Source of the DNA: Ricordea florida
Lineage: Eukaryota > Cnidaria > Anthozoa > Corallimorpharia > Ricordeidae
Reading direction: 5' to 3'
Assembly: GCA_949710005.1 (NCBI GenBank)
Contig: OX453279.1
Coordinates: 26,741,762 to 26,805,761 of the forward strand
Length of the DNA stretch: 64,000 nt
The notes beneath the pieces were generated by a model. The model was not told where the DNA came from and searched no databases. It saw only the letters and a list, made by a program, of their open reading frames with translations. The translations under genes were made by a program, and so were the position numbers. This document shows positions 1,166 to 33,056 of this stretch, piece by piece. Numbering within the stretch: position 1 is the first letter of the stretch; every line of letters begins with the position of its first letter.

Positions 1166-1522
1166 ATACTCCTGTCAAAGAAATTTCATTCATGGTGCGA
1201 AGCAAAATTGAGCGGCTGTTAGAGCCCCTTGATTCAAGCCACCATGACTGGAGGGGCGTGGCCTCGGTTATGGGTCTGTCATCCGAAGATGTCAGACAAC
1301 TGGAGAGTTGTTGTGATAGCAGAGGAAAGATGTCTGCATTGTTTGAAAAGATGGTACAGACTAAGAAGACTGTGCAAGATCTAGTAGGATGGCTACAACA
1401 TGATGATGTACAGAGATTTGATGCAATTGATGAGCTGGAAATGGGTGGTATTATTACTGGCAGAAGCTCCACCAAGGGGGAACTGGGAGAGGGGGGTGAA
1501 CAACAAGGAGTATCACATCATG
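1166..1522 (+). CDS. Exon 1: death domain
   Basis: The frame from ATG 1192 gives an amphipathic six-helix pattern typical of death domains: IERLLEPLD, then HDWRGVASVMGL (the conserved W-R-x-x-A-x-x-x-G core), then LFEKMVQTKKTVQDLVGWLQ and a closing helix with RFDAIDEL. The TVQDL...LQ block resembles the MALT1 death domain more than FADD or TNFR ones, which is a judgement by eye. The exon ends CAT G before GTAAGC (phase 1). The start is ambiguous: a pyrimidine-then-TCTAG acceptor at 1161-1165 would add DTPVKEISF in frame before the Met, which suits a death-domain first helix. Confidence 0.75.
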
Positions 1523-5100: not shown

Positions 5101-8100
5101 TAGCTCTCAAGATACTCGTATCCCAAGTCAAGAGGAAGAAGGGGACAGTTGCTCCAAAGACGCCCGTATCCCGAGTCAAGTGGAAGACACATCTTTCAGT
5201 GAGAAATTAAGCATCAGTCAAGAGGAAAAGAGTGATCGTTTCCCCAGCCAAGAAGAGCATGTTATTGATGAGGACGATGAAGTGTTTGGAAATGCCGGTA
5301 ACAAATATTTAACAATTGATTATCCTCTGAAATCAAAGTGAGTAGTGGCAGAATGTGTACCAAGCTGCGGAGCAGGGAGGTATCATTTCTAACAAGACAC
5401 TTATTACTGAGATTGAAGAGAATGATTCATTTAGTGTATAGATGTGCCATTGAGTCAACCTGGGTCTCATTAACCCTTTAAGTCCCAGTAGTGACCAGCA
5501 TCCAATTTCTCATTACAATATTCACTGTTCATCAGCTAACTGCCACTTGGTTAGCTCAGTTAGAAGAGCACCAGCCTGTCAAGCCGGAGGTCGTGAGTTC
5601 AAAACCTCGGCCAGACCAAAACTCAAGGTCTTAAAATTAGAATGTGCTGCTTTTGTTATGACATCTACAAATGGTTAGACATTCTAGTCTTCTTGGATAA
5701 GGACAAAAAACTGTAGGCCCCATCTCACAGCACTTTTCTTGTGGGACGTTAAAGATCCTACAACAATGTTTGAAAAGCGTAGGGGACATAGACCCCGGTG
5801 CTGTGGTCAACCGTTGTAAAAAAAACCTTTTTGCAATTAATAAAAGAATTGATGTAAATAGCACCTTTGAACATTTCCATGTGAAAAAGTGTGCTATACA
5901 AATTCGTTATCCTTATCAGCCATTCAGGTTATGAGAATAATGATAATGATCAACAAAGAGTTGTATTGATATTTAAACAAATTCTTCTCACTATAAGTGC
6001 CATAATGAGCATATTCATGAGAATAGGTAGGAGAAAATTAATATTGATATTGGGGCTTAAAGGGTTAAAGTAACTGTGAAACTTAGTTTGCTTCATAATT
6101 AGGCCATTTTACATTTAATTTAGCAAAGCGTACTTGCCCAAGGCTTTGACAGAAATCCTGACACTATATTCACCTTGTGTTAGGTGAATAGTGTTGAATA
6201 TCTTGGGAAAGTTAGCCAAACAGATTACCCAAATGCCAAGGCTGCTGCATTAGTATAATATTTATAGAAATATGAAATTTGTCATCTTGTCACTTCATCC
6301 CTGCAGCTTTAATATGCTTAAGATGTTTAAAGAAGAACAAGGATCAACATCTCCCTGGCAAGAAGTGTTGTAACTACATAATTGTGAACATGGACTGGCC
6401 TAGAATTTAATGAATAAATATGATAATCATCAACAAATTTATCAAGATCAGAAATAAAATTTATGACCTTTTTATGATATTTAATATTAAAGAAAAGGTC
6501 ATCAAATAATGGTCATTTCCATGCCAGTCTTTTTTCTGGGTTACTTATCTCTTGAAATACAAAATCAAAGTTTTATTTGGACTTTGATTTGTACCTTAAT
6601 CAATTTCCTGATCAATGACAATTGTCATATCCCTGCATTTTATTGGGTTTAAGTATCATCCTCTTTTTCTTTTTCTTTTTCTGTTGTAAATCATATCAGT
6701 TCTGTACCAATTAATTGCTATTGACAGGTGAAATGAAAAAGGTTGCTTTGCTGATCAGCTGTGTTAATCACAAGGAACATAATGCAGAACTCCGAAATCT
6801 GGATGACGCTCTGGATAGCACAGAATGGGAAGGCATGTACTTGATTTAAACCTTTCACTGCCAAGATCTGAGTAGCAACTCTTTTAAGTGACTGTCATAC
6901 TGTTTATAGGTTAGAAAATTTGGTGTTAGATCAATTTATGTCTGAGTTAATTGATCATTTCTGTGATTCTCATTAACAGTTAGCCATGCATGCATACATT
7001 GCATTTTTCTTGTATGGAGAAGTTCCATGTTGATCACATTTGGTAGTGAAAGTGTTAAAAACTGTCTCATTGCACAATGTTCCTTGTGTATTTATTAGTT
7101 GAGATTCTATAAAGAGCAAACTGGGAAGAAGCATTAAATCCAAGCTCTTCCAGCTATAGGTGTTGAACCTAAGACCTTCCGATTACTATAGTTCAGATGC
7201 TCTACCACTGAGCTGTTAAGGAGACTGTACTATCTCAACGGATTAGTACGGATTGAGAAACCTATAACAACTGTTTCCTGCAACACGCCATCTTTATTCA
7301 ACCAGGATCCTCCGGTTCTTACCCACAATGCATGCTGATACAACTCAATGGTATTTTGCTAATACAAAGACACTACAATCCCTCCCCTTTTAGAAGAATA
7401 ATCATATGCCTTTGTGAAAAACTTAATAAACAACAACAAAGTCAAAAGCGGTTGTTATGGTCTCTAACAAAGTTCATCAAAGAGTTTCAAGTTCTCAAAG
7501 GTCAAAATCTTTAAATGTTGTTCACTTGTAAAGTTCAAAGTCTTTAAATTTTGTTGGCACTTTTCTCAGCCTCGTAGGTCGAGTAAAACTCTCTTCTTCA
7601 GGTGTAGCAACCTCACTGTCATGGAGATTACTCTGGATACGCACAGTTGCCTCGTTGGATGCAGCATTTCCTGTTGAGTCAGGTTGTGTCCGTGTAGATG
7701 GTTCATCACGTGAGTTATCTCCCTTGCTTTCCTTTGTTTCAGGTGTTTCTTCACAGTTGACTTTCCCTTCTTTGCCTTGCCAAGGTGATTCTGGCTCATT
7801 GAAAATCTTTACATGTGAGGAATTCCTCTTATACTGTGCTCCACTCGATGATTGAACTGTGACACTATTTCCAGCTTTAGACACCACTCTGTATGGCTGC
7901 GGGTCAAACGGCGGCGTCATTTTGCTGAGGGACTTCTGCTTTAGCAAGACCAAATCTCCTTCTTTGATCTCACTTGTCTTAGCTTGACGTCTCTTGTCAA
8001 TGTAGATCTTTCCTTTCTCCTTTGCTTCGCTGTCTCTGTCTTTGACTTCTAAATCTTCTACTGTATTCTCTTCAATTCCAGGTAGACGGGTGCGTAACTT

Positions 8101-11100
8101 GCGACCAAACATTAACTCGGCTGGGCTCACACCTGTGGTGCTGTGGGGTGTGGTCCTGTACATGGTTAAGTAGGCTCCAAGTTCCTCTTTCCAGTCTTTC
8201 TTCTCAATCTGTGCAATTCTAATACGCTTCAGCAAGGAACGGTTCTGACGTTCTATCTCACCATTTGCCTGAGGCCAAAGGGGTGTAGTCGTACGATGAT
8301 GGATCCCTTCACTTTCCACAAAATTTCTGAACTCCTCGCTGATAAACTGTGGTCCGTTGTCCGTCACAATACTCATAGGCAGTCCATGTGTCAGGAACAT
8401 GTGTTTCAGACTTGCAATTATCTTGCCAGTTGTTGTTGATCTCATGACCTGTATTTCAACGTACCGACTATAATAGTCCACAACAGCAAGGACATGGTCT
8501 CCAGATGGTAAGCATGGTGTCATGAGATCTACTGCTAGGTACTGCCATGGTCCATTCGGTAACTCTGTTCTCTCTACAGGTTCTGGTGGGTTGGGGGCTC
8601 CGACCACTTGACAAGGATGGCATGTCCTACATAGCTCTTCTGCCCCTTTGTCTAGTCCCGGCCACCACACCTTTGTTCGAAGTCTGCGTTTCATAGAAAC
8701 TATGCCTGGATGTCCTTCATGGGCAATCTGCAGTACTTTCCCTCGAAGGCTGGCAGGGATGACAATCCTTGTTCCTCTCAGCACGAGTTTTCCAATCACT
8801 GATATCTCGTTCTTCACTAATAGGTATCTCTTGTTCTGCAAATTGTTCCATTTGTTTTCTCTGTAACACTTTCTCAAGTTGGACAACTCTTCATCATTAG
8901 CGGATGCTTCTTCTATTTCTCTAGTGGACATGGCTTTAGGTGTAGCACTTGCAGCGACATAACGTACATAGTTTTCGGTGCTCAGGTCTGGCTCAGAGAC
9001 TTCAGTAGTCAGGCGTGAAAGTGAATCTGCAATGTTACTCTTTCCAGGGATGTGTTTTACAACAAACGTATAGGGCTGTAATCTCAGTACCCATCGGTTT
9101 ACTCTTGCACTAGCATTAGACTTCCTCGAGTAGATAAACTCTAGAGGCTTATGATCTGTCAGGAGATCAAAGTCAACTCCATATACATACATATGGAAAC
9201 GTTCACAAGCCCAGACAAGAGCTAGGGCTTCCTTCTCTGTTTGGGAGTATCGCCTTTCTACATCAGACAAACTCCTACTAGCATAACAGATTACTCTAGG
9301 CTCACCCTTCTGCGTCTGTACGAGTACGGCACCCAAGCCAACAGGGCTGGCATCGGCGATGATTGCTGTCTTTGCCTTGAGATCAAAGTATGCAAGTGTC
9401 TCAGCGTTCGTGAGCCTCTTTTTCAGTTCCTTAAAAGAGTGTTCGTGTTCATCTTTCCAGACAAATGGTACCCCTTTTCTTGTCAATTTCCTCAAGGGAT
9501 CAGCAACTGTAGCTAAGTCAGGGATAAACTTTCCGCAGTAATTCACTAGCCCGAGAAAACTTCTGACCTCTGATACTGAGTCTGGCCTCCTGGTGTTGCT
9601 GACTGCTTCAACTTTGCTCTTCATCGGTCCAATCCCTCTTGCAGATAATAGATGTCCCATGAACTCCAACTCAGGTATGTAGAACCTACACTTCTCTTTA
9701 TTGAGAGTCAAACCTTTGTCTTGGATTCTTTGCAGTACTTTCTCGAGGCGTTCATCATGCTTTTCTTTTGTTGCTCCATGAACTACAATGTCATCGTAGA
9801 TGTTTCTCGCTCCTTCGCAACCTTGCAGGACTTGCTGTATGACTCTTTGGTACATCTCTGGGGCGCAGCATATTCCGAACATCAGACGTTTATAGCGATA
9901 AAGTCCTCGATGTGTTGCAAAAGTCGTGATACCTCGTGATTCTTCTTTCAATTCAATCTGATGGAAGGCCCATTTCACATCTAACTTACTGAAGACTGTA
10001 CTCTGGTTAAGCTCTTGTAATACTTCATCTACTGTAGGTATTGGGTGGCGTTCCCTGATGACTGCTTCATTGGCCTGTCTCATATCAACGCAGAGCCTGA
10101 TGTCATTCTTCTTTGGTACAATCACAACAGGTGACACCCATGGTGTTGGTCCTTCTGCCTTCTCAATTATGTCTAACTTCTCTAATTCATCTAGCTTCTC
10201 TTCTAGCTTTGCTCTCTGGCTTAAAGGTATTCGTCGAGGTTGTTGAGCTACTGGGTTGACAGTCTTGTCTATCGGTATCTCGAGTTGGAAATCTTTTAGC
10301 TTGCCAATTCCTTGAAAGCATTTTTCATATGTCTTGAGTAGCTTGTCACGGGTGTTTTCCTCGTCTACAACGTTGACACTAGAGCTGTTAGGGTCAGTGA
10401 TCTTTAAAACACCGAGCTGTGTTGCTGTATGTCGACCTAGAAGAGCTTGGCCTTTCCCTTCGATAACAATGAATTCTGCATTCTGGGTTTGTTCTCCAAG
10501 CTGGATGGATGCTGTGAAGCTTCCTGCTACTTTAAGTGGTTTGGTACTACCATAGGCAAACAGCTTCTTCTGGCATGTTCTTGACACACACTTCACTTTA
10601 CTTTTCTTGAGTGTCTCCCATAATTCTCGGTCAATCACATTACAGCTTGCTCCAGAGTCGATTATGAACTTGACACTTGGTACACCACCAACATCCAATA
10701 CCAATTCAGGTTGGGCTTTTCCACACACAACAAAAGCAAATTCCTCCTCTTCTGTCTCGATAAGATTAGCTGTATGTTTACCTCCTCTGGGTTTCTGATC
10801 ATTGTGCTTTTTCTTACTTTTGCAGCATTTTGCAAAATGTCCATTTCCGTGACATTTGTTACACCTCTTTCCTCTTGCAGGGCATTTTTCATCTGAACTT
10901 AGATGTCCTAAGTTATCACATCTGTAGCATCTCCTTTCTTTATCATCCAACCTTGGGTTTCTCTGTTGTTTGGGCTTTTTACGCTTGTGTTGGACTCTAT
11001 TTACTTCATGGGTTGTATTAGAGCTAGCAATACTATCAGCCTGTGTAGTACTCGCTTCCATAGCTCGTGCCATTGTTTGCAGCTGACTTAAGGTAAGACC

Positions 11101-14100
11101 GGCGCCTTTCTCAAGGAGCTTTGTTCGCAGGCTGTTCGATAAACACTTCTCTATCACTTGATCTCTGATGTTTTCATCTATTTTCTCTTCAAATTGACAG
11201 TAATCTGCTTTCTGTCGAAGTCTTGTAACGTACTGGTCGATAGATTCAGTGGGAAGTTGTGCCATATTTCTAAACAAGTGTCGCTCAAATGGGACATTCA
11301 CTTGAGGTGTGAAGTGCTGCTCGAGTTGTTTCATAGCGACAGTAAACACGGTTTCGCCTTCCCCTGGTTCTGGGGCTGCAGGTAACGTGAAATATACATC
11401 TTGTAAATCCATACCTCCACAGTGAAGGAGTAAAGCTTTCATCTGCTTCGGATCCTTAACTCCTTTTCCTTCTACAAAAAACTCAAATGCTCGACGCCAT
11501 TTCCTCCATCATGCTCCGACTGTCGTGGGTTCTCCTTTGCAGTCAAATAAAGGTATCCCTCCCAGATCTGTCTGTATTGCTGTCGTCATGCTTTCTGATG
11601 ATAATCCTCGTCGCCAAATTGTACTATCTCAACGGATTAGTACGGATTGAGAAACCTATAACAACTGTTTCCTGCAACACGCCATCTTTATTCAACCAGG
11701 ATCCTCCGGTTCTTACCCACAATGCATGCTGATACAACTCAATGGTATTTTGCTAATACAAAGACACTACAGAGACTTATTGGAGCAAGGCCAAGATTTA
11801 TGGGACAAACATCCTGGATTTCAATGTCAAAATCAAAGGGTTGTTAAGTAAAGAAAATGGCATATTTTGACCATGAAGAATTTAATATATGTAATTTTCT
11901 GAGGCTCAAACTTAGATATCTTAATTATCTCATAATCCTCACTTAGTAGTGTTACAATGTTGTGACAAGATTCAAAACTACCTTTTTAAAAATACAGTAA
12001 TGTAATACCTAATACAATAGTCAATTAGCATCAATCATTATAGTTAATTTTCTTTTGTCAATTTAATTAATGAAAATGAAATTATTACTAAACATTATGG
12101 GTAATTTTTACCAATGCCAGCAATTACTTAACGTGAAATAGCCTAATTTATTTTAAGTATGCTTTCCTTGAGTTATTGAAAATTGTTTAATTTTTCACAA
12201 AATTGTGGCATTTTGAAAAGCAGGTATGTAAGTTTACAACATGAATTAATTTCTGAATACACCAGTTATAATGTATTCATTTTGTAAAAATATCTTTTTG
12301 TCATTTCTCTTACAGTGACAATTGAAACCAAATGCAAACTTGCAAAGCTGTTATCATCTGTAGAGGCATTTTTAAAAGAAGCTGACGGAAATACCTGCTG
12401 TTTTGTTTATCTCGTGGGAGTTGTAATAAATGTACGTATAATTTTCATAGTTACAATTTAGAAAGTAATTGTTAAAGGCTTAGCTTACCAATCAACAACT
12501 GTCAACAAACAATTATAGCGAAGAATGCCGACAAGCAGAAAGAGTCCGGGCTCGAGAAAACAGGCAAAATGTTAACAAAGAACGCCGAGAAGCGGAAAGA
12601 CTCCGTGCTGTGGAAAACAGACAAAATTTTAGCGAAGAACGCCGAGAAGCGGAAAGACTCCGTGCTGTGGAAAACAGACAAAATTGTAGCGAAGAACGCC
12701 GAGATACCCTGCTAAAAGCCATGCAAGAGAGAAACCTCGGCTCGTAGGGTAAAGCAGAGAAGTTTAAAGTGAAATGAAATTAGTGCTAAACGGGAGCCCC
12801 GCTTTTAGGCTTGGCTAAATCTATATATTATGTATAATTATTGTCTTTAGCCTCCAAAAATGCAGAGAATTTTTTTTTATTGTTGCCATTTTTGCATGGT
12901 TAAATCTCAGGAAATTTCAGGAGGAATTTTATTTCCGAAAAAAAAAAGACGTGGTAGCCTTGCATTAATTTTGTCATATTTTTTTACAATCATGAATTAT
13001 TTGTGAACGTGGTTTCATTTAAGGTCATTAATTTTGAAAAATACACGTGATTGAATCAATAGATATCAAGTATTAAACTTTAATGAAAGAATAAGTATAA
13101 GAATATAGTACTGCACGAGCCCTGTAAATAAATAGATTATGATAAAGGAGAAAATTCTGAGGGCATCAAACAAGGGAATTTTTTTGGACACAGCAATGAA
13201 ATAACAAACTGTTTCACTTTAACATTTTAACCCTTTCCCTCCTTAACAGTAACTTTATAGAATTTACTCTCGCTAACACCAGACGATTTTAGGGGGGACC
13301 CCGTAGAAGTTAAAGGGTTAAAAACTATCTCTCTTAACCCTTCCCCTCCTAAATGTGACTTTATAGATTTTACTGTGGCTAGTGTCAGATGATAATTTTA
13401 CTCATCAAAGGGAGACCCCTTAGAAGTTAAAGGGTTAAGGAGTGAATTATTATGTTATGTATCATTACAAAATGTTATTTTCATACAGTGAAAATCTGCG
13501 AGATTTTCACGTGTGAACATATCATATTTTTACTCCTAAGCTCACCCGGATTTTTTTAAGTCCCAATATCAATATTCATTTTTAACTCGTGGATACGCGA
13601 AGCGCATTTGCGAGTTTTTGTGGGGACTCCGATATGCAAATTGTCACTCACTCACTCACTCACTCACTCACTCACTCACTCCAGTGTAGACACTCTTCGT
13701 AATTAGTCGGAAAGAACTCGGGAGGACCGATATGAAGACGACAATTGTCGTCACCGAAGTCTACTGATCAAAGTTCACGCTGAAAGCGTATCGTACCGGT
13801 GCCAGACTTTGTAATGATTTTGTACGATTAGCGAGGCCCTGTTAGGGGTAAATTTCGACAAGCGACATGGCCTTGAAACGGCAACATGGAGGAGCTGAAA
13901 TGGCGACGAACGACGAGCGGCTCACAGGACATTACGACAGCGACCTTCGACCTTCGGAAATTGCGACGTGAAAAGGTTTGAAACTCAGACGTGCGACATA
14001 AAGAACCTCACTAACAGGGCCTCATTAGCGGTCTTACTAAAATCAAAAGGAGTTTAAATGTTTCCAGTTAGGACAATGGCCAACTTGGAGACTGAATTTT

Positions 14101-17100
14101 ATGAGCCTTTGACTCGGCCAGGCGCTAAACGTGAACAGATGATAACTATTCGCTCTTCCGACGTTGACCACCCCCAAGATTACAAGCAGTAAATGAATTT
14201 CATTTGGCTCGAAAGTGATCTGAAGATGAGAAAATCTCTTGCTAATGTAGTAAGCTTTGATGAGAACTCATAGAGCGAAATGAGCACTTGAATGAGAACT
14301 TATATGAGCGAAATGAGCTCTTGGTATTGAACGAAACGACTCCGACTGAAAACAGAATAAATTGACGAATCCATGATGTGAAACCGAAGAACTTCTGTGG
14401 CCAACCAGGATAAGAAACATCGCATGGAGGACTTTTCTACTGATTTAAGTGTTAGTACTAACAGGAATGGAGTTGGAGAAGTATGTCAACATTTACCATT
14501 TTAAAAATATGGAGGCGCATGCCGTGACGGAGAACCATGAAGATTACAAATTATGTAAGAAAGTCATTAAAGGGTTCGAAAAGAGTAAGTCATATAGAAA
14601 TGTATTAAGCGTTATATTATATACAATACACCACAAGCCGTTACAACGAAAAGTTTTCTGTCTTGATTTCCGAATTACCTTGAAGTGAACTAGATTGTGT
14701 TGAAGTAGACATGTTGGAAAAATAGGCTTACCTGTTTTGCTTACTGTTGTGTGACTCATCATATTTTATTGTAAAAACAAGAAGTTATAAGGATAAAAAC
14801 AAAGATGTATTGCTGTATTAATGATGGCAAGTGTGATTCAGCCTTTTAAGTGCAACCCTGAATATATATACCACTGATAACCTAAAATGAGATGATAATG
14901 TAAATAAACTAATTCAACTTGATAAAGGATTGAGAGTCTTAAAGATCATCACTAACATACTTTGCAAAAATGCAAGAAAGACTTGTTTGGTATGATTCGT
15001 CAGCTGGGCAATCCTACATGGTTTTGTTCATTATCAGCTGCAGAATCAAAGTGGATATTTCTGTTGAAAACATTGAATAGACTTGTAGACAACAAAAACT
15101 ATAATGATGATAAAATTGACAATGTCATATTGGCAACAAAATTCAGACCTTATTCAGAAGGACCCTGTTACATGTGTTAGAAACTTTGAACACACAGACA
15201 GTGAGCAGCAGGATACCAGAACTACATTTGGTTTCAGTACCATTTAATCCTGTATCCTTATGTTAAGTTATCAAATTTTTTAACAACTGTATGCTTGCCA
15301 CCTGCCTTATAACTGATGCCTAGTGTAGTCAAATGATTGGCGTCATGTACTCACTGTATGTTTATTTCAAAAAGCTACTCAGCTCCCTGGTCACTTTTAT
15401 GTTGTGATTACAGATTATTAAAATTATCTTCAAGTTCATTCAATCACAACTCTGAAAAAAAACCTCGTTAATTTTTAAATTATTTATTTTTTCTCTGTTT
15501 TGTGAACATATCCACGAGTTCACCATAGTCCTACTTTGATTTCCTAACTGTTCTCATGTACGTGTTTATGTTGAATATCAATACAACTCTTTTTGGGTGA
15601 TCATTTTTGTTATTCTCATAACATGAATGGTTTATGAACAGTGAATATTGTAATGAGAAATTGGATGCTGGTCACTGCTGGGGTTAAAAGGGTTCAGTAG
15701 GTTTTTGCACGTCACAGTTTAACTCAGAAAAAAAGGAATTGAAGTTCCCCCATTATAGTGGAAGATAAAGCTATGATTCGTGAAAATAAAGCATTTGATG
15801 ATCAAGGAATTTTTGTTTATAATCATCAAATACTCCCTTTTCTCTTAATTCTAGGTAAATGGAGATAACTACCTTCTTCCAGCTGATATTAGGGACATTT
15901 CCTGCAGAGCTGATCTGATTCACGGTGCACTCAGTATTAATCAGTTGGTAAAACAACTTAGCAGTGCTTTTGTAAGTATACCTCTGAAGAAAAATGTTAT
16001 TCAGCAACCCCTCCATCTCTCCATGTGCAACTCCATTATGAAACTACGCACTCTGACTTATTCATGTCTAAGTAGTTTAGTTTGTGATATGTTAATTCAT
16101 ACATACATAAGTTATAATACACTTGGGCAGCCTGCTAGACCACTCTCTTTTAAGTTTAGTTGGTAATTTGTATATTCAAAGGCTCTGAATTCTTGTAGGT
16201 GCACAAACAACAGTGAGGAAACTCTCATATCTACGAAAATCTCCAAATAAACCCGTATTATATTAGTAAAAATCTACTTGTAGACTAATGCAAATGCCAT
16301 AATCTGTTTGGCTGAGCTACTGCAAACTATCAGCCATTTAAGGTCGTTTTCAAAATGGTGACGTATGGGTGCTTTTAGTGAAGCTTCACAGGAAGATTGA
16401 GTATTTTGGTGTTTTTTTCACTGACACATGATTTGTTTATTATGATTTTCACTAAAACAATTAGATTATTTGCTCTCGATTTCCATGAGGTGATAGGTAG
16501 TTTATTCGGCCTTCAGCCTCATCAACTATCACCCATAGAAATCTTGAGCTCATAATTTAATTCATAAATATGTTGCAGTTATATGTAGCTACATGTAAAT
16601 CCATCTAACCTCTCTATCAAGCCACCGACAAAGGTACCTTGAATAAATACATAAATACATAGAGGATTTATAGCAAGTTATGCATTGTTACAGCAATTCT
16701 AAGCTTACTGGACTCTTTTAGGTAAACTTACCAATTTGAATTTTTAATGTTGATTACTGCCAGTACTGTAACCATTATTGTTTAATGTTAATTGAAGGGG
16801 CACCTGGAATAAGCCAAGTGATTTCTGATCAGCTGGTCAATTCTCCTTCCAATCTATCCAGTATTTGCATGGAAACTGGGCAGAGAATTTAACACTGGAA
16901 CAGTAATCACTTATAGGGTCTTATTCCACACACCCCTTTAATAATAATAATAATTATAATAATGATAATATTATTATTATTAATTTATTACTGGTATTAT
17001 GATTATTGTTATTATATTATGTACGGTCACTTCTCTAAATGATGATTATTCAATTCAGATTAATTATCACCAGTCATTGCACTTAAAAAATGATGTCAGC

Positions 17101-20100
17101 AGCCTGCACCTGGTCTATCTTGTGGCTGATTAAATAATGGCCACTGAAAATTCAGCTAAAAAAAAGACCAAGTAAAACTGTGAAGAAGGTAGAAGTATGT
17201 CTACGACTGACTGCCTTTTGCAAAATAAATCAGAGTAATTAAAAGGCTCAGGACTCAAACAACTCCTTAAATTCTTGGTCATTTTAAAAGTGCTCAAAAA
17301 TGGCTGAAATTTCAATGGCACACTTGATTTTTTAGGATTTCTTGATTTTTTTCTTGCTTCTGAAGTTTTTTCGAAGGTTTGTGCTGCCTTTTTGAGGACA
17401 TATTAAGTATTTTTTTCTTTTTAGATGCAAATCGTGATGGTGGATAATGTCAAGCAGGATGGGGGTGAATCAGTACCTTTGAATTACCTCAGTAATCCTT
17501 GTGGATTGACTCCAATTTGTCCTCCACCCAATGCAGTCATTTCCTTCCCATCTGCTCCAGGAAAGCAACTTCCAGATGAAAAAAGGCTGTAAGTATCCAA
17601 AAATTATAATTTCTTTAAAATATAGCAACTTGTTTCAACTGGTCGAGCTACATTTGGGTTATTGAAGTCAAGATGGCTACTGCACAGTGGGCAAGTTCTC
17701 TTTTACATTTTTGTTGTCCGAGATGTGGTAAAGTTCAATAAAGACCCAACAAAGAACTCCACAAATATGCAGCCATCTTGATTGAACAAGCATGGTCAAT
17801 AAAGGATTATATGGGCATTTTGTGTTGTCTCGCATAACAAAGCAGGAAATCCGAAGCACTGGCAAGATAGGCCCATATCTTGCCCAACCAGGTGGCCTAT
17901 CAGAACTCAGGATTTGCCTCACCTTGCCACTTGCAGAACCAACCCTATAATAAAAGAACTTATGGCAACCATCTTTAGACCAGCAACTGAAAGTCTTAAA
18001 GTGTGAGCTAAAATAATTTTGAGTTTTGAAGTGTAGCTTACAAAGACATAAGTGATGACAAATAATAATTGCATTTATTATGTTGCTGGTTCTACTAACA
18101 GGCAAAGTGAGATGAATCCTGTGTTCTGATTGGCTGCCTGGGCAGACAAGATGGACCTATCATGCCCACTCAAAACAAAATGACCGTATAATACAAGTAA
18201 ATCCTTTATTGACCAAGCTTGTTCAGTCAAAGTGCTTTGCTTTGTTTTGTTTTACTTTATGTTATGTTTTGATTTATACAGGAATGTAGAAATGTATCAC
18301 TCCATTTTCCCAAGACCTGTTTATCATTAGACTTGATTAAAAAAAGTCTTTTTTTCCATATTTGTGAACATTTGTTCTTGGCAGTAGCTCCCGATACCTC
18401 AAACTCCCGATAACTCAAACATTTTTTTCCAGTTTCCTTTAGTTTGAATTGCAAATTGCAAATTTGCATTATTAGCCTACTTATAGGAATAGTAACTTAA
18501 ACAATAACATAAACAAAAATGATGCAAATGAATATATGAAAGACCATATATTTGAACTGCGGATTAATATGTAATAACATTAAATGGTCATTGCAGTTAT
18601 GTACACAACTTCAGCAACTGTGAAATTAAAGCCTGAAAAAAAAAATCCAGGCCTGAACGGGATTCGAACCCATGACCTCTGCGATACCGGTGCAGTGCTC
18701 TACCAACTGAGCTATCAAGCCAACTGGGAGTTCGTAATATACCCGTAGATGAAGAAGAATGATGCAAATGAATATATGAAAGACCATATATTTGAACTGC
18801 GGATTAATATGTAATAACATTAAATGATCATCGCAGTTATGTACACAACTTCAGCAGCTGTGAAATTAAAGCCTGAAAAAATAAAATCCAGGCCTTAACG
18901 GGAATCCAGGCCTTAACGGCCTTAATAGCTCAGTTGGTAGAGCACTGCACCAGTAATACATAATTACCTTCTTCATCTACGGGTATATTACGAACTCAAA
19001 ACATGACCAGCTCCCAGTTGGCTTGATAGCTCAGTTGGTAGAGCACTGCACCGGTATCGCACAGGTCATGGGTTCGAATCCCGTTCAGGCCTGGATTTTT
19101 TTTTTCAGGCTTTAATTTCACAGCTGCTGAAGTTGTGTACATAACTGCGATGATCATTTAATGTTATTATAAACAAAAATATAATATTAATAAGATAATC
19201 AAACTAAATATGGCTTTGAGAGGAGACTGCATTTACCATATTTTGATTTAATCCACAGGTTGTTCATAAGAAGTGCCATAAAGCATGTGCCTGCACAAGA
19301 AATTTCCCTCATAGAGTTCTTTGATAATATCAGACATGATGTGAGCCAGGAAAGCAGCTGCTGTCCTGTGGAATTTACCCTTCATATGCCTTCTTATCGC
19401 CAGTTGTGCCAATCTCCTGCAACAAGCCAAGGTTAGTAAGGCATTTAGAAATTATTACAAGGCACCATAACTCGCCAGGGGCTGTTACGTTTTGAATTAT
19501 TGGGTGTTAATGCTCAGCTGGGACCCCCCCCCCCCCCCCAACCCTTAGACTCAACTCCCAAATCTATCTCTTATAGCCAGATCTAGTGTTTCCAGTGAAA
19601 GCCATCTATTGACAGAGGCTTTCTTTGCTATCAAACTGAGTTGCAGGTAAATTTAACTTTGCGTATTTTATTTTTTTGAGTGGTAATTCCCAGTTTCCCT
19701 TGTCTAATCTTCAACCACTTGATCAGTTTCCTGGAAAATGATACTCAATTCTAGAGCCAAACTCTGATTTCTGTACCCAGACTTAACTTTTTGGAACCCA
19801 ATGTACTCCTTACAGCAGCACATAGCTGCATAACCCCATACATGGCTGTATAAAACTGGACAACTTCTGTTTTTTTTGTTTTCCTTGAAGGTTTGCCATG
19901 TCATGCCATAATATTTGCAAACTCAAAGTATCAAAAACACAACTTTGGACCCAGCGTATATGCAGAGACATCAAATCTGCGCGCTGCTTTGTTAAAAGCT
20001 GGCTGGAACTGTGGTATGTGTTATTGAGGGACACATTTAACACCAATTTTGTTGGTGAGATTTGCGTTAGGAACAGTCTTTGTGAATAAGACTAATAAGA

Positions 20101-23100
20101 TTAATTACTAGTGTAGCCAGGGCTATGAAAGTGCGATCGTAGTAGGAAATTCGATTCTCCCACTGCGTATTGCCTCGGAAGAGGCTCACTTTCTTAGCAT
20201 CAAAAAGGCCGTGCAATCGGAAATAAATGACATAGATAGTTGTAAGCGTTGAATCTCATAATTGAGAAACGAAGATATTACCAACACAGATGCAATCTCG
20301 AACTGCTAGCATTGAATACTGTGCTGCATTATCCTACAAGAGTTGGTTGACCTCTGACACGTCAACGCGCGACACAGCCCCAGACCGTGAATCAAGTCTT
20401 TGGGATAATCAAACGAATTGATAATTAACAATTAGATTATGGGCTCGAGATTTCTATGGGCTGATAGTTGATGAGGCTATCACCTCTTAGTATCACCCAA
20501 CCAGTGGACTGATACAAATGCCGCAATCTGATTGGCTACGCTACTAGAGGACTATCAGTAATAGTCCTCGAGTAGCGAAATTCGTGGCGCTTTCTTTTGT
20601 TTTATTCCCAAATAAATCTTTCTTCAACTTGCATTTGCTAACTTTATTATTGCTTTTTCTGTCCGACTAGTTGGGTGATACTAAAACAATTAGACCCTTC
20701 GCCCTCAAGGGCTGCGGGTCTAATTGTTAAATAGAAATCTTGAGCTCATAATCTAATTGTTTTAGTAAAAATCATAACCAACAAATTATGTATCGGTGAA
20801 AAAAAAGTACAAAATACTCAATCTTACTGCGAGACTTCGCTAAAAGCGCCCAGACTTCGCCATTTTGAAAACGATCTTCAACCAAGTGCTGTCGAATGGT
20901 TATGACTGGAATGCATACTTCAAGATAAGGTGAGGCATTTCGTGACACATATTCAATAAAGGTTATTTCAAAATAAGGCGAGAAATTTGGTCACGTTACA
21001 TGGTATATCGCGTTGTCATCGTGTATAGGCCAACATACTCTGCGGAGCATCCCGTGACTACGAGTGTTTTCTTTCATGAATTCTCAGTCTATCTCGAGTC
21101 GTTAGTCATGTGTAATGAGTTACTGTTAATATGTGGTGATTTTAACATTCATGTGGACGTTCCATCAGACGCTGACACCATCCGGCTCAAGGACCTGTTG
21201 AACTCTATGGGTCTGGTACAGCATGTCAAACGACCCACGCACATACATGGCCACACCTTAGACTTAATTATCACACGGCAGGCTGACGATATTGTGGACG
21301 TTGAGCCCCTTCCTGAGAGATATTTCTCTGATCATGCTGCCGTGATATGTAAGCTGAGTGAGGGGGACATTGGGGGGAACCCAATACCGCAATACCGTAA
21401 GAAAAAAATGCAAATACCGAAATACCGAGTGCAAAATCTACAAAATACCGATACCGCACTTTTAATCGGCCACGCTTAAAGTTGTATCCACCTAGTGCGT
21501 TCAGTTATCTCTCTTATGTGCCGATGTTTTCGTATCAAAGAAATTTTTGTAGAGCAACAATGATATGAAACAAATCACGATTGGTTTGCTATGTTACGCA
21601 AACTTCGGAACTAGTTATGACGAGAAGTGTGAACACCGTGACTTCAACTGAACCGCAATACCGCGAAATATGTTTTTTTACCGATCACCGTCAGTCAAAA
21701 CGACGAAAAACCGCATACCGTAGGGCTACCGCATACCGCAATACCGTAGCTTGGGACTTGAATTGCCGAAATACCGCCTGAAAATAAACCCAATACCGCA
21801 ATACCGTAAACCCCAATGTCCCCCTCCTAAGTGTGGCGAAGCCTCCGCTAAGAATTTAACATGCTGAATACAGGAAACTCAAATCAATTGATATACGAAA
21901 CTGAAAGAAGATATCCGTAATTCTCAGCTATATTAAGACCCGCCTAATGATTTGAACATGCTGCTCGACTGTTATAACACGACTTTAAGATCACTATTAG
22001 ATGATCACGCGCCCGTTTGTTTTCGTCATGTCTCCGGTCGACCCAGGCCCCCATGGTTCAATGAAGACATAATTCAGGCCCGTAGGGACAGGAGGAAGAC
22101 CGAGAGAAGATGGAGGGCAAGTGGTCTCCAAGCAAATCTTGTAGTATTTAAAGCTAAGCGAAATTATGTCATACATTTGATGAATGAAGCTAGATGTACT
22201 TATTACAAGGAATTCATTGACAAGAACAGTTCGGACTAATGAAAGCTGTTCCGGGCTATCAAGAGCCTACTAAATCTGCAAGCGGACAAGTCTCTCCCAC
22301 CTCACACTGACGCCTCTGTTCTTGCAAATGAGATGGGTGAATACTTCATCCATAAAATAGTGGCTATTAGATCAAAGCTAGCTGGTGACACGGTCTCTCC
22401 TGCGGTTACTGAGCGGGCGCCTCACGGTTCATCGAGTAGTGATGACCTTGTCACGCTATCAGAGTTTCAGCCTTTCTCTGAAGAGGCTGTAAGGAAGATG
22501 GCTGTGGCTTCTATGAAGACATGTACTCTGGACCCTCTTCCATCATCCGTCTTGTTGGTTAGTATAGAGGAGTTACTTCCAGTGATTAGTAGGATGGTGA
22601 ACGTATCACTAGAGAATGGCTGCTTTGTAGATAACTGGAAAAGGGCAGTAGTACATCCTCTGCTCAAAAAATCTGGTCTTCAACTGATAAACAAGAACTT
22701 TCGGCCTGTGAGTAATTTACAGTTCACGTCCAAACTCACAGAGAAAGCGGTTGCAGTACAATTACAAGAGCACATGCTAGTCAATGGCTTGTTTTCAGTA
22801 TTGCAAAGTGCTTACCGCCAACATCATAGCACTGAAACCGCACTACTCAAGGTGAAGAACGATCTCCTAATGGCGATGGATAAAGGTCAAGTTACGCTGC
22901 TGGTGCTTCTCGACTTAAGCTCTGCATTCGACACCGTCGAACATGAGATCCTTCTGGAACGACTGAGGTCAACAATTGGATTGCGGGGGAAAGTACTTTC
23001 ATGGTTTGAGAGTTTGTCTATCAACGGAACTCTCTCAAAGCCGTTTGATTTGAAGTGTGGAGTTCCTCAAGGATCGTGCCTGGGCCCGCTTTTATTTACC

Positions 23101-25503
23101 CTATACGTGAGTGAGCTGTTCCAGATTCTAAAACCCCATCTGCCCTCCGTTCATACTTATGCTGACGATACTCAGTTGTATTTGTCATTTAAGCCCTCTT
23201 ACTCTTCCATTGAAGTCGAAGCTGTATCAGCCATGCAGAAGTGCATCTGCGATGTCCGAGCATGGATGAGGGAGGATCAACTGATGCTCAATGATGACAA
23301 GACTGAGTTCCAGATTATAGGTACTCGTCAGCAGCTCTCAAAAGTTTCAATCCAAAGCATCAAGATTGGGCAGACTGAAGTCTCTCCTGTAGCCTCTACG
23401 TGCAATTTAGGCACATGGTTCGATACTCATCTAGATATGGGAACTCGCATTACTTGACTTGTAGCAGCGCTTTCTATTATTTATACAATAAACGTCATAT
23501 TAGGAAATATGTATTAAGACAATCAACTGAGAAAGTAGTTCATGCTTTTATTAGTAGTAGATTGGATTATTGTAAAAGCCTTCTGCATGGAATCCCGGAA
23601 TATCAGACTATGAAATTGCAACGTGTTATGAATGCGAGTGCAAGACTTATATATCGTGCGCACAAGTTCTGTCATATAACACCTCTACTCGCAGAATTGC
23701 ATTGGTTACCAGTGCGCGCCAGGATACATTATAAGATACTCGTGATAACTTTTAAAATTTTGCATGGCCTATCACCTAAGTACCTCTCAGATTTAATTAG
23801 TATTCAACAGCCTTCGTCCTACCATTTGAGGCGCAACGACAATGGTCGTTTGTTGGAAAGACCAAGTGTGAAAGCCAAGAAAACATTGGGAGACAGAGCT
23901 TTCCAGTTAGCTGCCCCTTTCCTATGGAATAAGCTGCCAAGGTCCGCGCGCGAAGCAACGAACTTAGAATCTTTAGAACTTAGACTTTAATTAAGACATT
24001 TTTATTTAAGGAATCATTTCAGTTATCTTAGCATATCTATATCTTTATTTGTAATCATCTTTTACCCATTTAATGTAATTAACAAATAAAGAAGCCTAAG
24101 CTGTGTATTACACTGTGATAAAACACGACGGGCATTTGAGAACACGAGTGAAATGTAGAAAACACGAGCCGCAGGCGAGTGTTTTCTACATTTCTCGAGT
24201 GTTCTCAAATGCCTGGAGTGTTTTAATCACAGTGTAATACACGGCTTAGGCTTCTTTATTCGCTTTATGATATATATTTTACATGCCGCGAGTAGAAACA
24301 ACAAAGCACACAGATCGACAAACCGACGCCATTTAATACCAAATTCTCGACTTTTTTCGCTTCTTCTTCTTTATTTGTTTTATTATTCTCAGCTTCAAAA
24401 CTTTCTGCTGCTTCGCAGAGAATTCCAACATGAATTTCTTCAAAGAAAAATGTTTTTCGCCATCTCTTAGAGAATTGTCGACTAGAGGTATGTGACGAAA
24501 AACAATAAAACACGCTTTTTCTATGTTTTATACTCTGATAAAACATAGGTTTTTTACCAATCAGAGCGCGCGTAAGAACGTAGCTATATTATAAATATTT
24601 TTTATGATTTTGATAGAAAGATTTGTAAAATTTTAGTTATTAATTACTGTTGTGATGCGCTTTTGAATATTTTATAGAAAAGGCGCAATACAAATAATAA
24701 ATGTTGTTGTTATTATTGTTATGGAAATCCCTGATAACCTCAGTGTTAACCAGCTTCGGCAGATAAACAACACTGTTTACGCAGAGAATAACTGCTGGGT
24801 TAGGCACTGATCTGTAGTGATTAGGGTTAAGCGCTCACTCGAAATTGTCGACTTTCACATATTGTTGTGGTGATACCATAGAGATAACCTTCATTGTATA
24901 TGTGTCACGGACCACAATGCTTTAAGCTGCGGTAGAGCCTGGTTTTCAGCGGACTGCAATGCTCTGCGCTGTGAAAGAGCCTCGTTTTCAGCGGACCAGA
25001 ATGCAATGCGCTTTGGTAGAGCCTCGATTTGAAACAAAGACAACAACAAGAAAGGCCAGCACTATCATCTTACTTTTCGAGAAAGATTGACTTGTAGACG
25101 TATCATTTGTATATTGTAAAACCGTGCGAGTCGAAATGATGAGATTGAGACGGCGCTCTGTGGTTCTTTGGCTTATTTATTTTGCGACGCTGTGATCAAT
25201 GGCTGTTGCCTTGGTGGGGAGACGTGATTCACGGTCTTGCGCTGTGCCGCGCCGTGCCGTGCCGAGTCAGAGATCAGCTAACTCTTGTAGCATAATGCAG
25301 CATAGTATTCAACGCTAGCAGTTCGAGATTTAATGTCTGTTGTTAATATCTTCGCTTCTCAATTATGAGATTCAACGCTTACAAGTATCTATGTCATTTA
25401 TTTCCGATTGTACGGCCTTTCGGCATGTTAAGAAGGCGAGCCATTCTTCCTACAACGATCGCAGTCATAAATTTCCGCAGCACTTTCATAGCCCTGGCTA
25501 CAC

Positions 25504-25541
<38 letters not shown>

Positions 25542-28500
25542 TAATAGCATTCACTTATACACAGTAAAATCAAACAGCTAGGTAGCTGATGTGGCTGTGT
25601 TACTAACCCCGTGCTAGCTAGGATGGGTGGGCCATTAAAATTGTGCCTACACAAAATTCGATTTTTCTGGCCTACCCTCCCGCGTTCTTTATGAGCAGTC
25701 TCTAACAGCCAGCGGAAATCGGCCGGCTATCGGTTGCTATTGACAACCCTGCAAAGCTTGGGTTTGGATTTTAATAGAACAGTTCTATTAAAAGAGTGAG
25801 ATTACTCAGTACATGTGTTTTTTGACAGATCTTCTGAAAATGTTAAGATCTTTGTTAGAAAAGTAAATCAACTGACAATAACTGGCTCCACGGTTTACCG
25901 ACATACATACATACATATTAAAATTAAAAATATCCCCTGATGAGTGGGCAACCACGAAACAGGCTTGTAGGGATAAACCTGTAGTTTGTTTGTGTGTTTT
26001 TTTCTCCCGCAACAACTACATCCATACATATATTTATTTCACCTCCCCTCGAAGCTTTTCAGTGGATTATATAACAAATCACACTAACTGTAAAGTTAAG
26101 AAACCCAACTGGTGGGAGACAGAGCAGTTGGCTATTTACAAGCATGGTCGAGGATCTGAAACTAGGGATTACCGTATTACATATCCAGGTAGTGATCAGG
26201 ACGGGAATTGAACCGGGGTCCGTGACCAGATTACAAGTCCAACGGTCTAACCATTTAGTCACGCTGACTTTGTAGACATTCATTGTCCTTTGGAGTGTTT
26301 CAGTTTATGATAGTGGAAGTGAAACTTTATTTTTTGGTTTAAACACAGGTAAAATAATCTAAAACACCATGTATGAACAATAATTTTACAATCATTGTAA
26401 GTGGTTTCAAACCTGAGGAATCTCACTAGTGGTTTGTCGAGCTCGGTCGCTCCCGGTGTTGGTAGTTCTAAGAAAAAACTCCTTTTCATTGACTTCGTTC
26501 TTTCAACAACTGGATGAAACATATGACTATGTAAACCTCACCTGGCACTACTTAATGACAGCTATAATTGCTCCTCAGATTGCGGGAGTGAAGTGACCAA
26601 GAGTAATTTTTTGGCTAAAATCATTGACCAGATTCATTCCCATCGGAAAGAAAAAAACGCCTTTTACATGACTTTGCTTTTCAATGTACTGTGCATCAAT
26701 TTGAAAATTTGAAAATTTAATGTAAACTTCAACCATAACTTACTATTTTCCTTGATATACTTCTACCAACTTTTAGAAACCATATTCATTTGGGAACAAG
26801 GTAATTTTGAAGCAGAGCTTCCGCCCTAACCTACTGTCGGCTGATTGTCCTGATAAACTGTCGACTGACAGCTAGTTCACCGACATACATACAGACATAT
26901 AGAGATTACTCCATGGAAAATGCGCGCGTACGATTTTTATTCACGAGTTGAGAAGTATCAGAATACGAACGGGTGAGCGCAGCGAACGAGTGAGTTTTCT
27001 GATACAACTCAACGAGTAAATAAAAAATCGTACAAAGCATTTTCCATGGTGTAATTTGTTTATTTTATAGAAACTGAGATTTTTGAAAAGCCAAATTTTG
27101 TCAATCTTACGCGCGTGTTTAGGGAACCCATTCAACTGCAATGTATGCGTGTAAAACTAGAATAACTAAAACATCAGTTTCTCTTTCAAAATCAAATATT
27201 TAATGAAGTAACACAAGAAATAAAACGTCAGTTTATACTTTCACAACTTTTATAAACATTTTTCAACTGAAAAAAAAAACCTGACTGAGGCTTATAGGTT
27301 CAAATTTAATCGAAATCGCGATGCGATGTTGTTCACTAGTGAGTTTTCGTCGTTCGCGTTTGTGATTGGACGAACGACGTTTTTTCACTAGTGAGTTTTC
27401 ATCGTTCGCGTTTCCTATTGGCTAATGCATTTTACGTATCATTTTTACGCACTCTTTCTTTCGTGAGGAAATCTCAGTATCTATGATATAAACATACATA
27501 CGTTACTTTATTTACCCTCGGATTTTAGAGTAGCTTATGCAGCTAATATCTCCGAGCATTTAACCATCAGATGAGAGATTGACCACAACACCGGGAACTA
27601 CGTCCCCTACTCTTTTCGAACAGGGTGTGGGTTCTTTTACGTCCCACGGAATCAATTATGAAGAGTTGTGAGACGAGGCCTACGGTTTATCGTCCTTATC
27701 CGAGAAGACTAGAAAGTCTAACCATTTGCAGATGTCATTACAAAGGCAGCACTTTCTCCTCAAATATTTAAAGACCCTGAGTGTTGGTCCGGCCGGGGTT
27801 TGAATCCACGACCTTCCGCACGTCAGTCCGGTGCTCTACCAACTGAGCTAACCGGTCGGTCGGTCGAAAAGTAACCGACAGGCAACGGACTCATCAATTC
27901 AACTGTCAGAACAATACAGTAACAAAAATAACAAAATCTAAAGAGCAAGTAAGCTTATCAGTCTGGTTGAACAGTCCACGAACTCCATTTCATCGCATTT
28001 AGTCGTCTATCTCTCGACAGACAACCGACAGTCGGCCGACAATTTTTTTATTTTGACGGGGGGAGCTCTTCTTCAAAATTATCGAAAACACAAACAACCA
28101 GTTAAATGTAGCTAATGTGATTTCATTCTTTTCGAGGACCAGATGCCGAGTTTTGTGATTTAAAAGCCAAGCCAATATCACAGAAGTTAAAAGAAATTGT
28201 GGATAAGTTAGCAGATAAGAAGTTGAAGGCGGTGATGGTGTATTTCATAGGCTACACACAGAAGGTATAGTATATAAATATAGGCTGGATTTCCATATCA
28301 CCCCATACTGCATTATGCATGCTGCATAGTAGCTGTATCGTTTGGTTCTTCGAAAACAACAATTAATTGCACGTGCATCATTTGGCAATACAGCCAAAGC
28401 ATGCATTATGTGAATTTAGCCTAAATATGCATTTTGACCAAGCTTGATGCCAAGTCAAGGCTATACATCAGCAAATCTGTTTTTGCGTTATTATTGACCG

Positions 28501-31500
28501 CGACTTAGTCGAAGACAGGAAGAACGGAAATTGAAGCACCTAGAGACACGTGTTCTGTAAACAAGTCTTAATTACTCCGGCATAAGTAGTTACCATTTAT
28601 TCTTTAGCGGTTTAGGCAATCCCTCGTAGTGATGTATGTTTGCGGACCAAAACGGTTCAACTGGAACATAGATAGAAACAATTCATTTCTCCCATTATAC
28701 CTCGCAAAAACTTCCCTTCAAATTTGCGCGGGCTTTTTGTTACGATCTCGTGTTGAATAGCTCGATCGTCACTTGACGCTACTAAATTTGGAGTTTTACC
28801 TTCGCCAGAAGCTTTGAACTTTTTGCAGTGCCTGCTTCGAAGAAATCATGCGCTTGCTCTCGAATTGCTACCCTGTACTAGACTCAACTGCCAAAATCGC
28901 TACCCATGTCCAGTAATGTTTTCTATGATAGCCACCTATCGCCGATTTTGTTTTTATTTTTTTTATTATTTATTTTTTTGCTATTAAACGGAGTTGCGGG
29001 TAAATTTTAATTTGAGGATTTAGTCTAAACTAACATCTTCAACCAACTGATCAGTTTCTTGGAAAATGTAACCCTATTCTAGACCCAAACTCTCTGATTT
29101 CTATGCCCTGACCCAAACTTTGTTGTTGTTGTTGTTATCATCCGTCTGTCTCGAGAAACAATGGCGTCTTCATCTGGGTCAGTGTGTGGTTGAGTTGCAG
29201 TGCTCTCTGTGGCTGAAGAACCCGATGTGGGAGCCGCAGATCCACTGGCACTTGCTACAAGTGTAGTCGGTGGTTTGTTATTTCATTCCGTTTCAGATCA
29301 ACGATTCAAATTACTTCTTTGGAGTGGACTACTCTGTGGAAGATTCTCCTCCGACCATAACGGACATCCGTAAAGCAGTCAAGCTACAGTGGGTGCTGGA
29401 TCTCATTTGTGAGAAAATTTACGGCGTAAGTTCGGTTTATCTCGCTTAATGCACCTATCAATGTTAAGCCGGCGGGGGGGAGTCAGGGCATGGGGTGGGG
29501 ATTTGATTGTCTTTGTTAGCCCTGGGGTAGGGCATTTGACTGACCTTGTTCTCTCGGGGGAAGGAATATTTGAATCTTTCTTTGGGTCCAGCCTTGGGAT
29601 ATTTGACAGCGATTTGCAGCCCGGGGTGGGGAAATTTGGTTGCATTTGACTGGAATGATTTGCCCGTGGGCAGGGAATTTGACGGCTTAACATTGATAGG
29701 TGCATAATATCACGCTCAGACAGAGTAAAATTTAGTTTATAGTAATTTGTTATGAAAACGTAATTAAATTGCCAGAAGACCTTTCGCGCGAAAACATGAT
29801 ATCTTCACGCGTGAAAACAACTGTTATTTTCACACTTGAAACTGTTACGTTGTTATGGTATCACAATACTATGAATATCACCGAACCGTGGAATAGGCAT
29901 AAATTTTCATAGCCCTCCCACTTTGTTTGACAGCCACACCCACTTTCTGTTTTGGTCTAAGCGTCAACACGTGAGGTAATGTGAATAAGAGGTCGATGAA
30001 AACAAGTTTTTAGCTTTTACGGGTTCACGATGGAAAGGGCTCCTTCTCCAGGTACCGGCACAGATGACGTAGCGCATTGTTTCACCATTGTGTGTAATTA
30101 ATTATTCAGTAACACATTTTTATTGTATGGCCCTGTTTCACGTCATCTGTGCCGGTACCAGGAGAAGCACCCCTTAGGTAAGGGACCAAAAGAGAAATGA
30201 GTAAACTCACCCTGTCATGGTCATGTGCGCCATCGTGCACACAGCGACTGTGGTCAAATTATTGGAATTCTTTGAGAAAAAAGGGCGGGGCACCAACAAA
30301 AATTGGGTGTGACAGCAATATACAAATTTGCGCCCATTCCACAGTTCGGTGATTTTAGTAATAAATGGCGCCTTAAAATGTTGAAGTAAAATGGTTTGAT
30401 ATTCTTTCGTATGTATGTAAATTTCATTAGTGTTTCGAAATATTCTTCCGCACTCGAGAGAGAGAAATGTCGTATCTCACGGCCAAATATCCTTTATTTC
30501 GGAGAAATTCAAACATTACTTCTACTGCTGATGTCTCACTTTGCTAATTTATTGCAGCAGGAATCCCTTCACTTTTCATTTTTTTTATGATTAATGGACT
30601 GTATGATATTGTGAAAGATTTATTTTCAGCACTGCCTCTAGTCTCCTCCGCAGCCGTTATTAGGATCGTCACGCAACGCTTCCCCCCTGCGTTGCGTGAC
30701 GATCCTAATAACGGCTGCGGAGGAGACTACACTGCCTCACGCAAACTCAGAAAAAGCAAATTCAAGTTCAAGTTCGAGTCGATCGCTAGTTCGGATGCCC
30801 TTCAGCTGAGCCATAAGATACTTGTGGGAGCAAGCCTATTTGATAAAGCCTATTCTCGGTATTTACCGACGTTTTTTTCTCTCTTTTCCTGTAATAGCCC
30901 AAATACCTAATTGTCGATGACCTTAACAAGTGTTTTAATGGTGGACTGGCAGAGATGACCGTCCCTCAAGAAGTGTTGGTCAGTTTGCCAAAGTCAAGCG
31001 GGGATGGCGGGTTTGTTGTTTTTACTTCAGGGAGTGTTTAAATAAACACGGACCGCGCGAGTTCCACCCTGGCGCGAGTTCACTTGAGTTCTCCCTGTAG
31101 CTTTGTGAATTTGTTTACTTGGTACCACTAGTAAAAGACATGACGGAGCGACTCATCGGGGCGAGTTCACCCTGGTTCCTATTCCGAGAATCTCGTTCCG
31201 GTACTAGATCTAGATCGACAAACTAGATTGCTTCTAGGTTTGTTCTGTAGACAGTATTAATTGACTTTTAAATTGTTTTTTGCTCTTTTGCCCGCCTCGA
31301 ATAGCCCTCGCTAATCGCGGGCAAAAGCTCTCTAATGTTAAATTCTTGTTTAGATCTAATGTTTAGATCAATTTAGATCAATTTAGATCAATAAAGGATT
31401 TGTGTACAGATCTCGTACCGGTATCATGTGAACGAAGAACAACCATTCGATTTTGGTAGGGAATCGGTATTTCCCTGTATTGAAACGGGTAGCACATGCG

Positions 31501-33056: not shown

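Follow-up and report, generated by a model that had tools for sequence, protein, structure and literature searches.

The long form of c-FLIP carries death-fold domains, in the form of tandem DEDs, followed by one protease-dead caspase-type domain; RAIDD (CRADD) has a CARD and then a death domain, after which its chain ends; and MAVS combines a CARD, a proline-rich stretch and TRAF recruitment with a membrane anchor and has neither a death domain nor a paracaspase fold. MALT1 and the other type 1 paracaspases, with cnidarian paralogues A-C, possess a death domain and a paracaspase-type domain, a domain structure that the available part of Staal 2018 (PMC5978004) describes as kept since Cnidaria. 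According to the same text, two Nematostella type 1 paracaspases did not induce NF-kB in human cells, either alone or with Nematostella TRAF2 or TRAF6, and left human CYLD uncleaved, and one Orbicella MALT1 homologue goes up in bleaching (PMC5978004). Coral caspase-X (AmCaspase Xa-Xd) consists of one inactive and one active caspase domain in the accessible sections of Moya 2016 (PMC4715348). Here we describe a gene of the corallimorpharian Ricordea florida, located in a stretch of 64,000 nucleotides (the window; C8:26741762-26805761) of a 537.8 Mb genome of 48 contigs, whose product we regard as probably, if by no means securely, a protease-dead paracaspase scaffold with the order CARD, PPPPY linker, death domain, TRAF-motif array, pseudo-paracaspase domain 1 and pseudo-paracaspase domain 2. 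At the level of sequence this reading builds on an intact 828-aa frame, on the domain order and the loss of catalytic residues, on the tandem origin of the two domains, on conservation among stony corals and on a linker enriched in the TRAF1/2/3/5 consensus, each of them evident in the comparisons below, and models of the homologues provide the caspase/MALT1 folds.

Exon joining placed the gene on the forward strand from about -2869 to 33056, with 14 exons and 2487 nt that encode 828 residues and close with a single terminal stop; 12 in-phase exons (1166-33056) form the part within the window (Table 1). The first-pass annotation of this DNA had already taken the locus for one gene, which the in-phase exons, the terminal stop and the homologues bear out, but had let it run from 6728 to 33056 in 11 exons, overlooking the 348-bp linker exon and two upstream exons; its 618-residue product was not reproduced. 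The homologues start with a CARD, and the matching exon was then located upstream of the window. An 11-exon gene requires exon 3 to be spliced directly to 6728; this is phase-compatible, yet exon 4 was included because it is also phase 1 to 1 and its end (DEDDEVFGNAG-EMKKVALL) matches the homologues; an isoform that skips exon 4 may exist. Counted from MVRSK, the product has 541 aa without and 657 aa with exon 4. The sole intron outside the GT-AG rule has a GC donor after 6832 (GAAG/GCATGT), without which the reading frame would be lost; the donors at 5337 and 6836 are incompatible with the frame and were discarded.

Pfam detected CARD_2 (39.1 bits) and CARD (30.6 bits) in the N-terminal part, both above cut-off, and Death with 29 bits in the N-terminal part and 28.2 bits in the window product (cut-off 22.6). 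The window product matched Peptidase_C14 with 46 bits over two stretches (cut-off 21.4), and domain 1 by itself reached 30.7 bits. A CARD fold, an N-terminal death domain and a paracaspase fold are present, and no Ig family was found in Pfam scans of the window product and 11 homologues, including between the death domain and the paracaspase domain, the introns not having been scanned for a missed Ig exon. An NCBIfam scan gave sub-cut-off matches only. Against PDB, the family profile matched the IRAK3 death domain (E 0.0059), more weakly the RAIDD CARD (E 0.02) and RIG-I CARDs (E 0.05-0.41), and further SacC and a cytidine deaminase (E 0.54-1).

In the window protein, V468 and Y701 replace His and V519 and L756 replace Cys, in agreement with the two tandem paracaspase-type domains lacking both residues that had been proposed from the DNA alone. 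Across 12 sequences (the window protein and 11 homologues), the His position of domain 1 is occupied by V, A, S or P and the Cys position by V or A, with H and C each in 0/12. The His position of domain 2 is Y or C in eight of the 12 and H in a single clade (P0002, P0003, P0004 and P0011), and its Cys position is L or V, with C in none of the 11 sequences that cover the site. A reading as an active protease was rejected because Cys is missing from both domains in every covering sequence. The caspase-X arrangement of an inactive first and an active second domain is likewise not seen, as domain 2 lacks Cys in 11/11 and His in 8/12. In the available text of PMC4715348, caspase-X resembles this gene in its tandem caspase-fold domains, the first without His and Cys, and differs from it in that the second domain has active-site residues and that a CARD, a death domain and a TRAF array go unmentioned there. 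Bacterial pseudo-orthocaspases, as far as the accessible portion of PMC6426788 describes them, also lack the His/Cys dyad and have Tyr for His as in domain 2, but are prokaryotic, carry Ser for Cys and are presented without mention of CARD or death domains. The MALT1-like equal spacing suggested earlier applies to the distance from the His position to the D of PxD, which is 14 residues in domain 1, domain 2 and an intact paracaspase exon of the same genome, but not from that D to the Cys position (37 and 41 residues vs 35 in the intact exon); in domain 2, GVD replaces PxD.

Predicted structures of the homologues show caspase/MALT1 folds in both domains, MALT1 being the top fold match of domain 1; from the P0010 model (pTM 0.36), the CARD and domain 1 alone were used. 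The two domains align with each other at an hhalign probability of 96.5%. Each begins after a phase 1 intron and has internal intron phases 1, 0, 0, 2; in a joint alignment the intron columns of domain 1/domain 2 are 57/59, 104/104, 145/147 and 207/198, so that three places coincide within two columns and the fourth falls in a gapped stretch. The shared phases lead us to conclude that the domains arose by tandem duplication, and the pair is best read as the duplication of a five-exon unit. With hhalign, the domain 1 profile, built from 8 of the 12 sequences, reached a probability of 82% (44 columns) with the genome's own paracaspase exon vs 0.3% for the single caspase tried. We therefore have fair confidence, from these profile comparisons, that the pair is paracaspase-derived, domain 1 directly and domain 2 through domain 1.

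Eleven homologues (P0001-P0011) were recovered, four by a first protein search and ten by a second (three already known); a third, with a profile built on six sequences, returned three known homologues and P0012. The four named sources, Montipora capricornis, Porites evermanni, Acropora digitifera and Stylophora pistillata, are stony corals, and Montipora and Stylophora belong to different suborders of Scleractinia. The same order thus occurs in other anthozoans: CARD, death domain and both paracaspase-type domains are complete in 8 of the 11 homologues, P0004 and P0006 being partial without the N-terminus and P0010 stopping within domain 2. P0011 has two CARDs. Among the nine homologues with an N-terminus, Pfam detected the CARD in all, over a cut-off in six (P0001, P0003, P0005, P0007, P0009, P0011), and Death at E 0.1 or better in all. 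Five homologous products of 842-905 aa are encoded on contigs of 3.0-4.0 kb, which are too short for a 36-kb layout and were therefore taken as spliced transcripts; that the whole order stands on contigs of this size, with both halves in one frame, argues that the halves form one mRNA. The window protein shares 35.5-46.6% identity with the homologues, and its branch is long (1.29 changes per column in a tree drawn with a midpoint root only). Mean column identity is 65% in both domains (domain 1, 8 of the 12 sequences; domain 2, 7 of the 12; near-copies and the truncated P0010 excluded). By these comparisons, it is one conserved gene shared with stony corals. Unless the copy in the window is a diverged paralogue, the shared architecture may be older than the divergence of the corals sampled; no second copy was found in the genome at the sensitivity of a genome search that listed three weak death-domain exons. 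Relatives in anemones or octocorals were not found in the three protein searches, each of which scored only the ~8,000 candidates sharing most words. That the locus is a decaying gene, an old paracaspase losing its function, or a mis-joined model of two genes is very improbable. The lost catalytic residues, the long branch and retroelement frames within introns would suit such an origin, but the 14 exons are free of stops or frame breaks, eight homologues keep the same order (five on contigs of transcript size; the three homologues that do not are partial) and the sequence is conserved outside the lost residues.

The linker encoded by exon 4 contains LPQQ, IPSQVEE, IPSQEEE, IPSQVED and FPSQEE, three of which fit PxQE or PxQxxD. 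The available part of PMC6125299 gives Px(Q/E)E or Px(Q/E)xxD as the consensus for TRAF1, 2, 3 and 5, describes the D of PxQxxD as unimportant where a PxQxT-type contact is made, and names TRAF complexes of MAVS. Three or more PxQ are present in all 11 sequences with a complete linker between the death domain and domain 1. Counting Q only, we found 47 PxQE/PxQxxD over the 12 sequences vs 2.46 expected from 2000 shuffles per linker, none of which reached the observed total; the consensus is mammalian and may not be that of coral TRAFs. The window linker singly has 3 vs 0.16 expected, the incomplete linker of P0006 has none, and four proteins checked have 0-2 outside the linker. The TRAF6 consensus is not enriched in the linkers (6 vs 4.8 expected). 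Of the 10 complete linkers that join CARD and death domain, 6 have a PPxY motif (window, P0005, P0007-P0010); as a universal feature it was dropped, being missing from P0001, P0002, P0003 and P0011.

The first-pass annotation had described a death domain followed by two pseudo-domains without Ig domains and had suggested a decoy or scaffold near BCL10/MALT1-type signalling. That architecture stands as far as it went, having missed the N-terminal CARD, the PPPPY linker and the TRAF-motif array; in sequence, these three point to a TRAF-recruiting scaffold over a plain decoy, so that a scaffold-like role is plausible and the plain decoy less favoured. The CARD followed by a death domain is shared with RAIDD, death-fold domains ahead of a protease-dead caspase-type part with c-FLIP, and a CARD, a proline-rich stretch and presumed TRAF recruitment with MAVS. 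As a TRAF-recruiting scaffold, the protein would use its CARD and death domain to polymerise or to engage cognate adaptors of the BCL10, RAIDD, MAVS or IRAK kind. Once clustered, it would present a multivalent linker to TRAF2/3-type ubiquitin ligases, with output to NF-kB or JNK, and the inactive pair may serve as a dimerisation or protein-binding module, for instance by engaging an active paracaspase of the same genome. An improbable alternative is a MAVS-like antiviral or pattern-recognition adaptor, in which the CARD would take the signal of a RIG-I-like receptor, the TRAF motifs would relay it and the pseudo-paracaspase pair would be a structural tail. The protein has no C-terminal transmembrane anchor by hydropathy: the Kyte-Doolittle mean over 19 residues peaks at 1.31 (residue 461 of 828).

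At a C2 locus, a paracaspase exon retains both GH and DICR, and an Ig-like exon was recognised by eye upstream of it; from this we infer that the genome probably encodes a catalytic partner. Between these two exons (L027 2000-5060), two long reverse-transcriptase frames of LINE type (512 and 542 aa) were seen by eye. Searched with PF00656, the genome yielded 10 exon matches, none of them in the window gene. A rather unlikely alternative is a c-FLIP-like modulator: its dead domains would form heterodimers with caspases or an active paracaspase and adjust the activity of these partners, and the TRAF-like motifs would be of secondary importance. The conservation and the predicted caspase folds of both domains fit it, as does the GH/DICR exon, and in the accessible text of PMC4715348 the authors propose for coral caspase-X a c-FLIP/procaspase-8-like pairing of inactive and active domains. 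In the present gene, however, the chain has no active partner domain, and such a modulator leaves the motif array unexplained.

Several results weigh against a paracaspase-derived, TRAF-recruiting scaffold. Domain 2 by itself had no Pfam match at E 10, its profile, built from 7 of the 12 sequences, aligned significantly with neither the paracaspase exon nor the caspase in hhalign, and MALT1 was not its top VIA match. A sequence search of PDB at E 10 gave nothing for the window product and, for the family profile, neither caspase nor MALT1 chains. Peptidase_C14 went undetected by Pfam in 5 of the 11 homologues (P0002, P0003, P0004, P0010, P0011), whose domains were assigned via alignment to the others, and Death was over the Pfam cut-off in none of the nine, P0001 marginally below; the paracaspase link by sequence is thus weak. 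The linker motifs are short, the strict matches of the window linker are just two PxQE and one PxQxxD, and P0003, P0004 and P0011 are near-copies; given tandem repeats and near-copies, the motif counts are not independent and the shuffles overstate their significance. Finally, the two Nematostella type 1 paracaspases had no NF-kB scaffold activity in human cells in the available part of Staal 2018 (PMC5978004), so the wiring may differ.

Table 1. Exons of the Ricordea florida gene in window coordinates; upstream of the window, 0 is the last base ahead of it.
Feature	Coordinates	Strand or location	Basis
Exon 1: CARD, Met start	-2869..-2572 (L009 7131-7428)	upstream of window	homologue-guided search of 20 kb upstream; Pfam
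Exon 2: linker with LSPPPPYTSP	-998..-810 (L009 9002-9190)	upstream of window	search of 20 kb upstream
Exon 3: death domain, phase 1 to 1	1166..1522	+	Pfam Death
Exon 4: acidic linker, five PxQ motifs, phase 1 to 1	4950..5297 (348 bp)	+	
Exon 5: start of pseudo-paracaspase domain 1; GC-AG intron after	6728..6832	+	
Exon 6: domain 1, YLVGVVIN; V468 (12420-12422) at His position	12316..12431	+	
Exon 7: domain 1, NYLLPAD	15855..15971	+	
Exon 8: domain 1, MVDNVKQ; V519 (17449-17451) at Cys position	17425..17588	+	
Exon 9: end of domain 1	19259..19431	+	
Exon 10: start of pseudo-paracaspase domain 2	19891..20013	+	
Exon 11: domain 2, YFIGYTQK; Y701 (28253-28255) at His position	28143..28264	+	
Exon 12: domain 2, NYFFGVD and LQWVLDLICEKIYG	29297..29425	+	
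Exon 13: domain 2, YLIVDDLNK; L756 (30922-30924) at Cys position	30898..31010	+	
Exon 14: end of domain 2 and stop codon	32924..33056	+	

The intron between exons 5 and 6 holds an uninterrupted retroelement polyprotein frame of 1328 aa (7522-11508, minus strand), in which a zinc knuckle, protease, reverse transcriptase and integrase were recognised purely by eye; the sequences that flank it near 7230-7375 and 11625-11775 are similar. A LINE-type element lies in the intron between exons 10 and 11 (20946-23990, plus strand; endonuclease PF14529, 32.2 bits; reverse transcriptase PF00078, 109.6 bits). Repeated tRNA-like segments (GCTCAGTTGGTAGAGCAC) were seen by eye in both orientations at 18640-19110 in one intron, with similar stretches near 5550 and 27830, and are possibly tRNA-derived SINEs. 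Repeats resembling RREAERLRAVENRQNxSEE occur at ~12510-12745 (plus strand, intron, by eye) and downstream at 36116-36457 (minus strand), the latter stretch without Pfam matches. A phosphatidylinositol phosphate kinase exon (PIP5K, 32.6 bits; 51553-51906, minus strand) likely belongs to a neighbouring gene. About 0.5 Mb downstream are three related death-domain exons (L023, L024 and L025; C8 27251389-27288675, minus strand), 30-33% identical to the window death domain at weak E-values of 0.03, 0.27 and 1.2.

With MALT1, as far as the available text of PMC5978004 describes type 1 paracaspases, the gene shares a death domain, a paracaspase-type domain and, in domain 1, the NYLxPxD motif. TRAF recruitment, here proposed, is also a scaffold function of MALT1. 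It differs from MALT1 in its two paracaspase domains, the absence of the His/Cys dyad, the lack of a detected Ig domain, the extra CARD and motifs of TRAF1/2/3/5 instead of TRAF6 type. We did not find this architecture described in the open-licence literature, a scope outside which most subscription papers fall, and the available portions of Staal 2018 (PMC5978004) and Moya 2016 (PMC4715348) do not describe it. As a scaffold, the gene would hold that half of MALT1's job, separate from the protease. Tentatively, and with clearly less assurance than the scaffold itself, MALT1's two jobs may be split between genes in corals and their kin, active paracaspases cutting and this protein acting as a single-chain scaffolding signalosome, perhaps in immunity or bleaching. 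If true, this would be a natural example of evolution parting an enzyme from its scaffold function, and the gene is a direct, testable candidate for how cnidarian paracaspases reach NF-kB.
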